A stretch of DNA of 64,000 nt, taken from positions 18,617,231 to 18,681,230 of the forward strand of contig NC_049983.1 of the NCBI RefSeq assembly GCF_000003815.2, read 5' to 3'. Each line of letters begins with the position of its first letter. Position 1 is the first letter of the stretch. The notes under the pieces were generated by a model, which saw only the letters and a program-made list of their open reading frames with translations, searched no databases and was not told the origin of the DNA. The stretch comes from Branchiostoma floridae. Lineage: Eukaryota; Chordata; Leptocardii; Amphioxiformes; Branchiostomatidae. Both the position numbers and the translations under genes were made by a program. Of the stretch, positions 23,031 through 63,106 are shown one piece after another.

Positions 23031-26000
23031 ATGAAGACCCCGCTTTTTGAAGTGGTTAGCCTGCTGAGAACTCGCCCATCGGCACCCAAGAGGGGCGCGT
23101 CCGGATCCAGCGGACCTTCCATCAACCTCTGTAACTGGTGGCAGGAGGGGAAGAGGGCCCTTCTTGTGTTGCTGTGTGATAATGGTAGAAATATAACATC
23201 TTAGCTGCGATTTTGTGAATAGTTGAGATTTGTGCACACTCCTGTCTTTGCTTCTTTGCATTGGCTTGCAGTTATTGCTTTAACTTTGATACAAATATGG
23301 TAATACATTTACTAGTATGATCAATGATGTTATATCGGTTTGATTGATTGATTGATACTTGATTGATGTGGTGATTTAATCCAGACAAAAGCCATGCTTT
23401 TGATTTTATATTGTGCATGGTATTATTACATTGCATAACGTCAGCAATCTGTGGCATCCGATTTCATTGCAACTGGAATTATAACATTATAGGTAGCGTT
23501 ATAACGTTACTGCCTGACGGGGTCAATCATTAACTTTTACACCCAGAAGGCATAACTTTATGTTACTAGTGGCAGTGCCCAGCTATTTGATGTAATTTTG
23601 ATTCTGATATACTCAAATATATCATATTACACACATCTTAAGAAGAAAATGGATCAACAATATCGCAACAAATTGAAACTGCTATCATGGGAAAGATGAA
23701 TCTGTTTCAATTAGAGAATTTTCTCATCTCATGACTCACATGATTTCATCTACTTTCTTATTTTGAGCTAGAACATATCAGCGAGTAAGTCAAGACAACA
23801 TGTAGACACGTACAGATAGTCAAAACTGCCCCAAAAGACCTCCCTGGGGACCAGTGAGATCTGGTTTATATGTACAGGTAGTGATTTTAGATTCTTAATG
23901 TTTGTGACAATGGGAAAATTTTTTGAAGGACAACCAAATAATGGATCATCTGCGTCTGCATATAGCTACCCCCAGCTAACCCCACCTGGGGAAAAGTAGG
24001 GGGAAGTTGAGGTCCTGGGCTAGGGTGAGCAAACCTCCTACCTGGCACAGACAGACTCAGCTATTGGAGCCATCACCACCATGCAAGGCAGGGCATATAT
24101 GAAATTTAAAGGTGGCAAACTATAAGTGTGGCCAGGTAGACCTTGTATAATATGGACAGTAAGGCTTAGGCCACAGCAACTAAATTTTATGGATGACATC
24201 AGCGCGCGCATTAATTTTGGCCTGATATCAGAAAAAAAAAAAAATTTTTTCTTCTGCAGGGATGGTCAACATGACGATAAAGTACCAAAATGAGCAAATA
24301 TGTTGTGTTGTAGCCTAATAATTGTATTTGTAAAAGTGACACTTGCGAGGTACCCAGGACTGTAGTTGTAGAAAAGTAACTTACTGGATAGTTGTAAAAG
24401 TGACCCCATTATGGAAGCCATGAGTGTGGTTACCAACTTTGTTGGTGATGCCAGTCTACCACACTAGTGTCACTTTTACCACACCAGTGCATGTCTTGAA
24501 TACAGGAATGAATGCCTTGTTGGTTCTTATACCATGTTTTGTCCCTTTAATTCTTGTTACAACATGCATCACAACTTTATGGTGCCTATTCTTTAAAATG
24601 TACCCATCTTGTTTTTTTTTTCACCCGTCTTGTTTTTTTGTCGCCCTATCGCACTATTTTTGCAGTCTGCAGAGGATGTCTTCCATAAAATTAACTTGCT
24701 GTGGCCTTATTACATAGTCTATTTTCAAATCTGATTGTTGGCTTCTGTTTGTCTCCATGAAGGATTCCTGTTACTCCAGCACATAGTTGAGGGGAGGAAA
24801 GTGAACACCCGACAGCTACCATGGTTTCAGCACCCAGGCAAGGCTATCCGCGCCATGGCGCTGGACCCGCGGGGGGCGTGGCTGATGTGTGCAGGTGTGA
24901 GAGGATACCTGTACATCGTCCCAGCACTGCTTCTCCTGGTGGGTACCGTGTTGTGATGCTTTCTGTTATATGCAAGTGTGGTTTGTTAGGATATTAGGAT
25001 GGGGAAGGATGAAGATGCCAGACTGACAAACTGGCCTATCTCATTGCTTCAATAACATATAAAGCAGGGCTGCCTCCAGGACCCGTCTCTCTGCCTCTGG
25101 ACGGAAATTTTCTGGATGGGATGTAAAAGAATATTACCCCATCTGTTACATTCTTTAGCCTGAACTCTATACTCTTAACATGCAACTAGTGATACGTATG
25201 GGTTTTTTTTTTGCTATGTTGTGGACAAGTGTATCTTTTTGATAGAATTGAAACAGGGACAATAAGGTTCAATAATGAAAACTGCTTGTTTTACAAAGAT
25301 GTAAAATGTGATGACTTTTCTTCTGTAGGATCCATCAGCAGCTGTCAAAGTCCTGTGGAACAAGGATGATGTCACAGAGGTCAAACCAACCATCAGACAT
25401 GGTAACACCAAAATTAGTCCACTTGATCATGTCTGTATTTGATCAGGCCATACCGCGTACTACTCATAGCTTTATCTGCCATATATAGCAATGAGAACCC
25501 AAACCTGATGCGAGATTGAAAATTGTTGTGGCGAAGTCATTAGATTGGAAAATTGATCATTCTTTGTTGCTGCAGCTCCTCCAACCTGCATTGAATGGTG
25601 GTACACCTTTGATGACAAACAGATAGCTATCATTGGTACTGAGGTAAGGATACTAAGAATAAGATACAGAGTTGTTTAGATAAACACATGTTGATTGTGA
25701 CTTTGGAGGCATTTTGTAAATACACCTTAGTAGAGTAGATTACTATTAGCTACTACACTCCTTAGTACAGTGCATTTCGCTAAAAAGACTGTACTGTGCA
25801 TCCTGTCCACAAAGCAGTGTTTTTGTAGTCAATAATGCCTACTTATCGTTGCTTTGTATTTTTCTTGTTCTTAACTTGATATTGTCCCACTCCCAGATAG
25901 GAGAACTGGTGTTTGTAGACCTGATACTGGGAAGAGAGGTGGGCAATACACAGGTCAGGGAATATGTGGCAACAATGGACCTCATCAGGGATGACAACCA

Positions 26001-28238
26001 CTCCACAGTACATCTGCTGGTAGGTAACCATGACAACCATTCTACAGTACACCTGCTGGTAGGTAACCATGACAACCACTCCACAGTACACCTGCTGGTA
26101 GGTAACCATGACAACCACTTCACAGTACACCTGCTGGTAGGTAACCATGACTACCACTCCACAGTACACCTGCTGGTAGGTAACCATGACAACTCATAGA
26201 TAAACATAACAACTATCTATGACTTCCATTCATAAATGTACAGTGAACATGACTGGTGTATGAAAAACATACAACTGCAAAAACTGCAATTCTGACGTTT
26301 GCAGTGACTTCCTGGTCACTTCCTGCCACTCTACAGATCTTCAACAGACACACAAGAACATACATGTAGCAAACAGACACACTAAAAACAAATCCTCCAT
26401 TCACTGAAGCAACAATTGTCACCCAGTAGACAATGAAACAGCCTAACCAACAGGAACCATATATTCCTGCCCCAGGTGCAGACCCAGTCAGGTATCCAGT
26501 GGAGACTCCTCCTGGAGCAGCGCTCCTCCATCCTGCCGGAGTCTCCAGGGACGGCCTCTGGTCTGGGGTTTGAGATGGTGGATGCTATAGACAGGTACTG
26601 TACCTGCTCTTAATGCTTTGATGCTTTGATGCTTTATTTGTCCATTAACTGACAAACAAACAAAATTGTACTCAGCTAGTCTTCCTGGATATATGACAAC
26701 TCTCATCATCTGTAGAAATCTAGTCTTAGTGGATTTGTGCAGTGTAATATTCTTGCCGCCCGCCTCAGCAAATACTGACATGCGAGAATGATGATGATGA
26801 ATATTCTTGCACTTATACTTTTGATCATGCTGATCTAAAAGAGACTGAAGTTTTCTTAAATTTAGATCAGCATAACTGTAGATAGAGAACAAGGTTTATT
26901 ACCTATGTATATAGGCTTTTGTGCATGAAAGTAGAAAATAGTATAGCATCAAGTCAGTTGCCTAGTTACTAGTATGTAGTTATAGAGTTTGTCAAAGGTT
27001 GATATGTCAGGTGATATTTCCCATTCTTAAAGATATAGCTCGAGATGAAACATAACTTACATTCAGACCCTTGCGACTTAGCCCCGCCTATTGTAAGCTC
27101 CTCGCAATTCAGCCCTTGGCTGCGAAGAGAGAGTAGTCGGCCCATACAATACAATACAATCATTACCCTCCCCCAGCTTCCTCCACACAGACGAGCTGCG
27201 GCCAGAGTTTACACCTGAGGTGCTGAACCAGTTCACTGATGATGTCAGACTGTCTACCCAGCAGGCTAAGGGCTGTAGTCTGCTGATGGCACAGGACAGG
27301 GGCAGGGCTGTGTGTAAGGTCAGTGTGATGGCACAGGACAGGGGCAGGGCTGTGTGTAAGGTCAGTGGGCTTTTGTGTAAATCTAAGCTAGTATCAAACC
27401 TAACAACCTCACTCAACTGTAACTACATGCATGTACGTGTACCAGTATCTACCAGAGATTTGGCCAAATTAAGCAAAAGGTGGCTTTAGTGGTTAGGACA
27501 GTCTGGACTGTTGACATTTAAACTAAGGTTCTGGGTGCAAATCCCCAGCAGGCCCCAATGTTTTGCCATTGAGAAAGGTACTTCACACCGATTTCCGTGC
27601 TTGACTCGGGTGAAAATGAGTGCCTAGCTTCAGTTAGATACATCCTCTTTAATGGAGAATTAAGCTATAGACCCTGTTTTACACTTTGAGAGCCACACCT
27701 TGAGCATGTTAATGATCCCACCACACTTATAAATAAAGAGTAGGGATCCATCAACCCTCAGTGTGAGTGGATCAAACCTTGCAGTCTGATCTTACACAGC
27801 TTATACTTACTGTACAAAACTGGTGTGTCATACCTAAAGGCAATTATGATGCAGTTATGTGCAAAACAAACAAAGAATGTGGAGCTGCAGGCATCAAACC
27901 TCTGCATGTAAAAAAATCATTGTAAAGAAAACTTCTTGAGAACACATACTGTATCATACAAATATGTTTATTGCTTGCTCTAAGACTTGTACAATAGTTT
28001 CCATGTCTTAAATTTCTATCTTAAACAAAGAAGTTGTTACTCTGTTTGCCCAGCTGTATGACAGTGGGCTGCAGAGGTTCTATCATAAACAGATAATTTT
28101 GTTATTCTGAATCCCCAGGTGTATGACAGTGGGCTGCAGAGGTCTGCCCTGTATGTGTACAGACTGCCTCACGACTCCTCACACATCCTGCTCACAGACA
28201 GACTCATGTTTGTCACCACAGCTGACAGGGACACACAG
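23031..28238 (+). CDS. RCC1-propeller gene, exons 1-8: N-terminal WD-like region
   Basis: Exons: 1 23031-23184, 2 24763-24938, 3 25329-25401, 4 25576-25643, 5 25897-26019, 6 26476-26594, 7 27177-27318, 8 28119-28238; residues 1-325. WD-like strands are visible as [20 protein letters not shown] followed by GYLYIV, and [20 protein letters not shown] followed by GELVFVD. The exon 1 start is ATG 23031; an upstream in-frame TTG exists but no earlier ATG. Exons 5, 7 and 8 have splice borders that are duplicated in tandem next to them (see repeats). Exon 5 is taken to end at its first donor (26019), the choice that needs no repeat to be translated; other donors keep the frame. Confidence 0.88.
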
Positions 28239-57594: not shown

Positions 57595-58153
57595 NNNNNN
57601 NNNNNNNNNNNNNNNNNNNNNNNNNNNNNNNNNNNNNNNNNNNNNNNNNNNNNNNNNNNNNNNNNNNNNNNNNNNNNNNNNNNNNNNNNNNNNNNNNNNN
57701 NNNNNNNNNNNNNNNNNNNNNNNNNNNNNNNNNNNNNNNNNNNNNNNNNNNNNNNNNNNNNNNNNNNNNNNNNNNNNNNNNNNNNNNNNNNNNNNNNNNN
57801 NNNNNNNNNNNNNNNNNNNNNNNNNNNNNNNNNNNNNNNNNNNNNNNNNNNNNNNNNNNNNNNNNNNNNNNNNNNNNNNNNNNNNNNNNNNNNNNNNNNN
57901 NNNNNNNNNNNNNNNNNNNNNNNNNNNNNNNNNNNNNNNNNNNNNNNNNNNNNNNNNNNNNNNNNNNNNNNNNNNNNNNNNNNNNNNNNNNNNNNNNNNN
58001 NNNNNNNNNNNNNNNNNNNNNNNNNNNNNNNNNNNNNNNNNNNNNNNNNNNNNNNNNNNNNNNNNNNNNNNNNNNNNNNNNNNNNNNNNNNNNNNNNNNN
58101 NNNNNNNNNNNNNNNNNNNNNNNNNNNNNNNNNNNNNNNNNNNNNNNNNNNNN
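57595..58153. other. Assembly gap (559 N)
   Basis: A continuous run of N. The true content and size are unknown, and open frames spanning it are meaningless. Confidence 1.
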
Positions 58154-60359: not shown

Positions 60360-61320
60360 GTTCACGCAAAATTACCTGTCCTTTCAGCGGCGGGCGAAGT
60401 AGGGGGCGGGCCTACGGACTTTACAATTGTGGACTGTAATTTGTTTCGCGCCAAGTAACCATGTCCATGTTAGGCTTGTTCTGCTCGTCCCTCAGTCAGT
60501 ACCTCTTCCACTGGCAGCGACGTCTCTACGTTCAGAGGAGCAAATAGGTGATATATTTTTATGACTGCAAATGTCGCACTTGATCTGTATGACCCGGTAT
60601 GTCTGTGAGGATGTATGTAGACATTGTCCACCTGATTGCTTCATTTTCCTGTTAATCATGTGTCTGACTCCCGCCACGAGTAGGCCACAATTTACCGAAG
60701 TGCCCATTACAATTGCGTAATATATTCTACCCCACTGCCTATAGGGTCTGTGGCTGTTGACCAATGGGCAGCAGCGAGAAGCCTAGCAGCAAAACTTGTC
60801 GCTGCGATTTGTTTTTCGCGACGAGGAGTGATTGGTCTTTTGGGGATACCGCCCTCCCATTCGCCCGTGCTCGCGCAGAGTGGTGCGTTCATTCGCGCTT
60901 TGTTTGCAGGGCAGTTGTTTTTTATCATCGGGGCTGTGAGTGACGTACCCATCTAATAGAAGGGGTGAGTCGGGAATCGCTGCTAAATTCTTGGCGTGCA
61001 CATCTCTGGTATTGTCGTGGTCACATTGGCCTTTTGAATGTTAGGTTACAGTCGACAGACCACAGCCAGCAACCGAGCGCGAAGGAACGTGCCAGGCGCC
61101 CGCCCCAGCACAACTCTCTTCTCTCTACCTGAGCCCAGGTTATTCTTGATTTCTTCCTTCTGTCATAGAGAACTTTTGGGACAACTAGTTGTGTTTTTTA
61201 AGCCTTCTTTTTGATGATTTTGTGCAATTATTTTGTGGTATCGTTTTACTGACGTTTGCTTGGGAGGAGGTATCGCTGCTGCCTGTACCACCCATTCGGC
61301 GGGTTTAGGGAGAGGTCGCA
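60360..61320 (+). promoter_or_regulatory. Putative Fezf promoter and 5' UTR, CpG-rich
   Basis: Sp1-type GC boxes (GTAGGGGGCGGGCC) lie at about 60400. CCAAT boxes appear as GACCAATGGG at about 60758 and GTGATTGGTC at about 60827. CpG density rises towards the start codon. An in-frame TAG at 61306-61308 precedes ATG 61321. The transcription start is not determinable. Confidence 0.5.
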
Positions 61321-61411
61321 ATGCCAAAGTCATTTCTGGTGAAGACGGTGAAGGGAAAGGACTCTGCGGACGCTCGGCATAGAGTGAGCGAGACCCCGCA
61401 CACTTACTCAG
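61321..61411 (+). CDS. Fezf: SNAG-motif exon, probable first coding exon of Fezf
   Basis: The 91-nt exon has ATG with purine at -3, an in-frame stop 12 nt upstream, and the sequence [12 protein letters not shown] domains (MPRSFLVK in Snail, Scratch, GFI1) sit exactly at the N-terminus and recruit LSD1/CoREST. The frame ends at TAA shortly after the donor if unspliced, so it needs splicing to make a long protein. Phase 1 at the donor fits the two leading bases at the Fezf acceptor 223 nt downstream. The donor GTTTGG is not strong. It could instead be a short upstream ORF. Confidence 0.6.
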
Positions 61412-63106
61412 GTTTGGGGACCCCTTACCGGCACAGCCGAGTCCGAAGCACTTGGTAAAAGACTAAGCTGCACTGGGTGGTAGGTTGACACAATGACTTT
61501 AGGAAGGCTGCGCACTTTGCCTACATATCGACTATTGGTCACATCTGGCTAAGGTGTCCACTTCTCCGTCAGCGCGACTTATCGCAAAGCTTGTGTGCTC
61601 ATTTTTTCCCTTCTTCCCTTGTTTGCCTCTACAGAGCCCTGGAGCTACACAGAGGAAGGACTCGTCGATAACGCTTTCTCAGGACACCAGAGTGACAACG
61701 GAATGAACATGGCAATGTTCGGAACCCTGGCTACACGCGCCGAGCTCGGCGGAGGCACCAAGACCACCGGCCCGCAGCCAGGCGACAGGGACAGTGGTTG
61801 CTCACTCGCTGCCCGAGTCGAGCCCCGCTCGTCCGACAAGAAAGAACTGGCTTTCTCCATAGCACGAATTATGGAGCCGTCGCCGAACAAACCCACCCCG
61901 AGGCTGTCCGCGGGCACCGCCGTGGACTCCACCGCTGACTTCCGACGCGGCGTCCCGTCCCTGGGCCAGCCCTGTTTCCCCCTCTCTGTACTGGACCTGA
62001 GCGGTGCCGCGGACTTACGGAAGGGACTCCTGACAGAACACGCCGTCAAGTCGTTCCGTCCGGCACAGCTAACCGCCGAAATGTCAGAGGCGAGCCGTCG
62101 GAAATTCTTCCACACGGACTTTCGACTCCCGACACTCCGCACGGACTTGATCAAGCCCTACCCGATCTACTACAGCAGAGAACAGGTCCTGCGCGCGCCG
62201 ACGGCTCCCTTCGCCTTCTACGAGAACATGAACGCCGTGAGATTTGTGGACTTCTACTCTAAAGAGACTATCGCCAACTTTCCCCTGTCACTGGACGGAG
62301 GCAAGGTGCTGAGCGGTAAGTCCGTGCTGACGGCCCGAGGCGCCGGGACAGACAATAAGGGCATTCAGTACGGGACCAGCCCGGCCGGCATCCAGATCAG
62401 CCCCACCGCAGGATTGCCGCTAGCGAAGGGCGGGACTGGAGCAGAAAAGGCTCGGGGCGGGCGTGGGAAACGTGCCGCCAACAAACAGAAGACCTTCCCG
62501 TGCGAAGTCTGCGGGAAGATCTTCAACGCGCACTACAATCTCACCCGCCACATGCCCGTGCACACGGGAGCCAGGCCCTTCATCTGCAAGGTGTGCGGCA
62601 AAGGTTTCCGCCAGGCCTCCACGCTGTGCCGACACAAGATCATCCACACACAGGAGAAGCCTCACAAGTGCCAGACCTGCGGCAAGGCCTTCAACCGGAG
62701 CTCCACGCTCAACACACACATGCGGATCCACGCCGGATACAAACCCTTCGTCTGCGAGTTCTGCGGTAAGGGCTTCCACCAAAAGGGCAACTACAAAAAC
62801 CACCGGCTGACGCACTCCGGCGAGAAGGCTTACAAGTGTCACATCTGCAACAAGGCCTTTCACCAGGTGTACAACCTGACCTTCCACATGCACACGCACA
62901 ACGACAAGAAACCCTTCACCTGCGACATCTGCGGCAAGGGCTTCTGCAGAAACTTCGACCTGAAGAAGCACATACGTAAGCTACACGACGGCGGGAACGC
63001 CGGTACGGTGCCGGGTACGGCCTCGTCCAGCCCCTGCGTCAGCCCTACACCTAACGTACCGGACAAACAACAACAACAAGAAACAACACTTCCAGCCGCA
63101 GAGTAA
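61321..63106 (+). CDS. Fezf: Fezf zinc-finger transcription factor, with a putative SNAG-bearing first exon
   Basis: Known role: Fezf proteins are repressors patterning the forebrain and olfactory system; Drosophila Earmuff is the homologue. Exon 2 (61635-63106) encodes an EH1 Groucho-binding motif LAFSIARIM (61847-61873) and six C2H2 fingers at 62495-62989, from [21 protein letters not shown] to [20 protein letters not shown]. These are near-identical to vertebrate FEZF1/2, so the assignment is firm. Exon 1 (61321-61411) reads [20 protein letters not shown], a SNAG-type start. Its donor CAG/GTTTGG joins in phase with the acceptor CTCTACAG/AGCCC, giving about 520 aa. Alternative start: ATG 61703 ([10 protein letters not shown]) in exon 2, closer to vertebrate FEZF N-termini. 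All six fingers lie in one exon, whereas vertebrate FEZF genes have introns there. The stop TAA overlaps a consensus donor. Confidence 0.93.

Follow-up and report, generated by a model that had tools for sequence, protein, structure and literature searches.

A putative SNAG domain in the Fezf protein of amphioxus was predicted in silico by Irimia et al. (2010; PMC2942887), whose available text considers this domain ancestral to the Fezf family, reports it in non-bilaterian Fezf and describes it as lost in every bilaterian studied other than amphioxus, a loss that sets the other bilaterians apart from amphioxus Fezf. According to the same text, Fezf-like genes of cnidarians and sea urchin have the SNAG domain without the Fezf box, which is proposed to be a co-repressor motif that replaced SNAG; the box is placed near the C-terminus in a legend and at the N-terminus in the main text. 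RT-PCR by these authors, with developmental cDNA libraries as templates (so stated for Branchiostoma lanceolatum), found the SNAG domain to be absent from the developmental Fezf transcripts of both Branchiostoma floridae and B. lanceolatum (Irimia et al. 2010). Other SNAG factors, namely those of the Snail/Scratch, Gfi, Ovo and Insm types, likewise carry MP[KR]xFLVK at their N-terminus and differ in their finger arrays. Fly Earmuff has an EH1. Six fingers and an EH1 are common to Earmuff, vertebrate FEZF1 and FEZF2 and the amphioxus gene considered here, the EH1 having been demonstrated for FEZF2: in the available parts of the respective papers, Xenopus Fezf2 requires its EH1 for TLE binding (PMC4299278) and mouse FEZF2, which carries an EH1, binds TLE4 (PMC8327856). 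Elsewhere, as far as the available texts go, SNAG is mentioned for GFI (PMC2889900), the lncRNA FEZF1-AS is mentioned in two papers (PMC6468368 and PMC8018836) and OVOL2 is dealt with in another (PMC10682436); our search of the open-access literature retrieved no paper combining SNAG domain, eh1 and Groucho.

We have analyzed a window of 64,000 nucleotides of the B. floridae genome (contig NC_049983.1, positions 18,617,231 to 18,681,230 of the forward strand), in which the Fezf locus has the following features, assigned by reading the sequence unless another basis is given in brackets:

61306..61308, + strand, in-frame TAG stop 5' of the SNAG ATG
61321..61411, + strand, putative SNAG exon of 30 aa plus 1 nt with a weak phase-1 donor, CAG/GTTTGG (reading, donor scoring and primer identity)
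61412..61634, + strand, predicted intron of 223 nt ending in a CAG acceptor preceded by a strong pyrimidine tract
61635..63106, + strand, main Fezf exon, coding through TAA
61703..61711, + strand, two ATGs within the main exon and in frame with it, 61703 and 61709 (also, the published whole-CDS primer begins at 61709)
61844..61873, + strand, EH1-like motif of 10 aa
62492..62989, + strand, six C2H2 fingers in an intronless array (Pfam; position from genome comparison)

We take the gene to be Fezf partly on the basis of vertebrate sequence. Pfam recognizes six PF00096 stretches in its frame, the number of fingers typical of the Fezf family, and the EH1-like motif lies in the N-terminal position of the EH1 or Fezf box. 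When the fingers were compared with the genome, a single match was 100% identical and the other nine of the best ten were 44-50% identical (150 of 3443 candidates scored). The identification of the gene rests further on the published amphioxus Fezf primers (PMC2942887): Fezf_R corresponds exactly to 63087-63106, Fezf_L matches 61709-61730 with one mismatch and the coding reverse primer matches 61864-61883, again with one mismatch. The SNAG primer of the same study is identical to 61321-61341 at 21 of 21 bases, so that exon and gene are the same as those of Irimia et al. (2010), the sole difference found in the available text being the one mismatch in each of the two other primers. The SNAG exon of amphioxus Fezf has thus been in print since 2010, and the novelty that the initial annotation attached to it is lost. 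Further, the Fezf box of that paper presumably corresponds to the EH1-like motif at 61844..61873, EH1 being a term that its available text never uses. The presence of this motif distinguishes the amphioxus gene from the Fezf-like genes reported without Fezf box. The SNAG domain and the Fezf-type fingers, in turn, are shared with non-bilaterian Fezf and with the Fezf-like NveFezf3/12/30 and SpuFezli, known here by the descriptions in PMC2942887. Vertebrate FEZF genes differ in having introns inside the fingers. An origin of the amphioxus gene as a retrocopy was rejected, intronless fingers being usual outside vertebrates and Ciona according to the available text of PMC2942887.

The ATG at 61321 opens the frame MPKSFLVK, with the TAG lying in frame 15 nt upstream, and the MP(R/K)xFLVK start of SNAG-domain repressors is found at the extreme N-terminus of the predicted frame; a short exon 5' of amphioxus Fezf hence encodes a putative SNAG repressor motif, as the initial annotation had read. 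Its claim of matching splice phases also holds, since the exon is 91 nt long and of phase 1, its donor lies directly after 61411 and the acceptor 223 nt downstream, TTGCCTCTACAG/AGCCC at 61634/61635, is of phase 1 as well. Joining 61321..61411 to 61635..63106 gives an uninterrupted frame of 520 aa without internal stops, in which the junction translates as TYS-E-PWSY and the TAA ends at 63106. No Pfam match to a SNAG family was obtained on the joined protein, and in the PDB no chain of at least 20 residues matched the 30-aa exon, a query so short that this result says little. Neither the protein nor the DNA search of the genome detected a second copy of the exon, within the sensitivity of these searches, which leaves its capture from a recent duplicate unsupported.

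The splice sites were then evaluated, donors being scored in bits with a donor matrix and acceptors being rated by a simple count of pyrimidines. The donor after 61411 scores 4.9 bits, a value equalled or exceeded by 9.5% of the 3921 GTs in the window; three further GTs within the open frame of exon 1 lie above it, with 5.1-5.3 bits, and a GT near 61480, in the predicted intron past the stop of the frame, reaches 7.0. Such a weak donor agrees with the SNAG exon being skipped. The acceptor at 61634 is strong, given that just 0.4% of the AGs in the window have an equal or better pyrimidine count, and it may thus serve to join exon 2 to some exon lying further upstream.

The reading that we favour, with a probability of about 0.68, is that an ancestral 5' SNAG exon persists as open sequence outside the usual developmental mRNA, while Fezf acts via its EH1. 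The exon would descend from the ancestral Fezf gene and from related zinc-finger genes with SNAG; it is still open and spliceable on paper, but would not be part of the usual developmental Fezf mRNA, in which exon 2 is most likely joined to another 5' exon or itself lies near the transcription start. Translation most likely begins inside exon 2, at ATG 61703 or 61709, and normal amphioxus Fezf most likely represses via EH1 and Groucho/TLE. An isoform with both SNAG and EH1, also docking LSD1/CoREST, would then occur at most rarely or in restricted tissues. Hence, the SNAG exon probably represents an ancestral exon that is left over or seldom used, and would at present lack a function. The ancestral origin that the initial annotation had considered agrees with the SNAG domain reported in non-bilaterian Fezf (PMC2942887). 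As published, the situation fits the presence of SNAG at the origin of Fezf, amphioxus being the sole studied bilaterian whose canonical Fezf retains the coding exon. What counts against a relic is that ATG, SNAG core and frame are intact, the phases match and the acceptor is strong, a state that exceeds the needs of a long-dead exon; moreover, the RT-PCR described in the available text of PMC2942887 covers development only.

These same properties speak for a second reading, in which the exon is still functional and serves as an alternative first exon in adult animals or in restricted cells, producing an isoform that recruits both LSD1/CoREST through SNAG and Groucho/TLE through EH1. The candidate phase-1 donors present in the other SNAG genes with a split structure (see below) point in the same direction, but the donor of Fezf is weak with its 4.9 bits and, in the available text of PMC2942887, SNAG is absent from the developmental transcripts of two species; we regard this possibility as unlikely. 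Likewise unlikely is the proposal that amphioxus retains a cell-type-restricted or adult isoform combining ancestral SNAG with bilaterian EH1, which would represent a surviving intermediate stage between the two co-repressors, one replacing the other. Expression of the exon, if it occurs, would show Fezf in the course of changing from SNAG-LSD1 to EH1-Groucho repression. The suggestion of the initial annotation that SNAG and EH1 are combined in one protein stands insofar as the two can be joined in one frame, but is contradicted for development by the transcripts described in PMC2942887. The RT-PCR that it proposed has a published equivalent in the same paper, negative in the development of two Branchiostoma species.

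Alternatively, RNA containing the SNAG exon could remain unspliced or be spliced at a donor located at +63 (AGA/GTGAGC), and would code only for a SNAG peptide of 44-45 aa, acting as an upstream ORF or as a peptide occupying LSD1. The two frames required are present, and with 5.2 bits the +63 donor lies above that after 61411 (4.9 bits), but we consider this explanation very improbable. Of note, the frame from the +63 donor stops at a TGA (61704-61706) that overlaps the first internal Fezf ATG (61703) in the tetranucleotide ATGA at 61703-61706, an overlap that can be due to chance.

To evaluate coincidence, the SNAG start was searched for in the window and across the genome (513 Mb in 431 contigs). 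A degenerate SNAG pattern has one match in the window and none in 100 dinucleotide shuffles of it; genome-wide, this loose pattern gives 21 matches versus 17 for the reversed control and so lies near background. Strict MP[KR]xFLVK is retained by seven of these 21 matches, numbered L009, L014 (Fezf), L016, L017, L018, L021 and L026, and six of the seven, all except L016, are followed on the same strand by C2H2 finger sequence. The fingers of L009 are in the SNAG frame, inside its 3-kb locus, and those of L017, L018, L021 and L026 were found within 20 kb of the SNAG start. Judging by the finger sequences, we assume the types to be Insm for L009, snail/scratch for L017, Scratch for L018, Gfi for L021 and Ovo for L026. 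In comparisons with the PDB, Gfi-1 (2kmk) ranks fifth for the fingers of L021 and SNAI1 (3w5k) fifth for those of L018, in both cases below multi-finger arrays, while no Ovo entry is present among the 60 matches listed for L026. The remaining strict match, L016 (G000:C6:5668773-5668795, minus strand), starts with MPKCFLVK and has only chance matches to the finger expression within 20 kb, so its SNAG-like start is probably due to chance. Six of the 14 non-strict matches served as a control for fingers: L024 shows only a chance finger match over 20 kb, and five plus-strand matches (L011, L013, L015, L019 and L028) have no fingers in their 3-kb loci, a range that is too short because L017, L021 and L026 show no fingers in it either.

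A chance origin of the SNAG start of Fezf is unlikely, because none of the 100 shuffles matches and six of the seven strict starts sit upstream of C2H2 genes. The near-background yield of the loose pattern speaks for a SNAG-like frame that is coincidental and unrelated to Fezf, but these two results argue against it, as does the SNAG domain of non-bilaterian Fezf genes reported in PMC2942887, and we find such a coincidence scarcely credible. Another observation concerns the Gfi-type gene, in which, at ~6.4-7.0 kb of L044, three or more occurrences of the same 26-aa finger sequence are packed into a few hundred bases, reflecting either local repetition of an exon or an artefact of the assembly.

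The favoured reading of an inherited exon can also be confronted with the exon structure of the split SNAG genes, namely Fezf, L017, L018, L021 and L026 (L009 was omitted, its fingers being in the SNAG frame). In all five, a candidate phase-1 donor follows the ATG at a distance of 85-148 nt, so that the four genes to which we assign SNAG-factor names resemble Fezf in this respect. With the same matrix, these donors score 10.1 bits in L017, 12.1 in L026, 7.3 in L018 and 6.5 in L021 versus 4.9 in Fezf. Among the candidates of each gene, the phase-1 donor ranks first in three (L017, L018 and L026), but only second in L021 and fourth in Fezf. Of the acceptors that come next, the one with the highest score takes phase 1 in three genes (Fezf, L018 and L021), while the best found for L017 and L026 is of phase 0, considering the direct next acceptor only. 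The candidate phase-1 donors after SNAG mildly favour the view that the Fezf exon goes back to a first exon with SNAG that these genes had in common; the phase argument for inheritance is a soft one, adding a small piece of support for one ancestral SNAG exon. Together with the strength of the splice sites, this comparison with other SNAG genes is what we add to the published account.

Regarding the rest of the window, ten of the 37 stop-to-stop ORFs of at least 120 aa were scanned for neighbour genes and none of these ten matched Pfam; tRNA and Rfam searches gave no match in the window. A stretch of 559 N at 57595-58153, which is an assembly gap or a withheld stretch, creates spurious open frames on both strands. 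Two tandem arrays are also present, one at 311-790 with 8.1 copies of a 59-bp unit and the other at 25991-26193 with 5.2 copies of a 39-bp unit.
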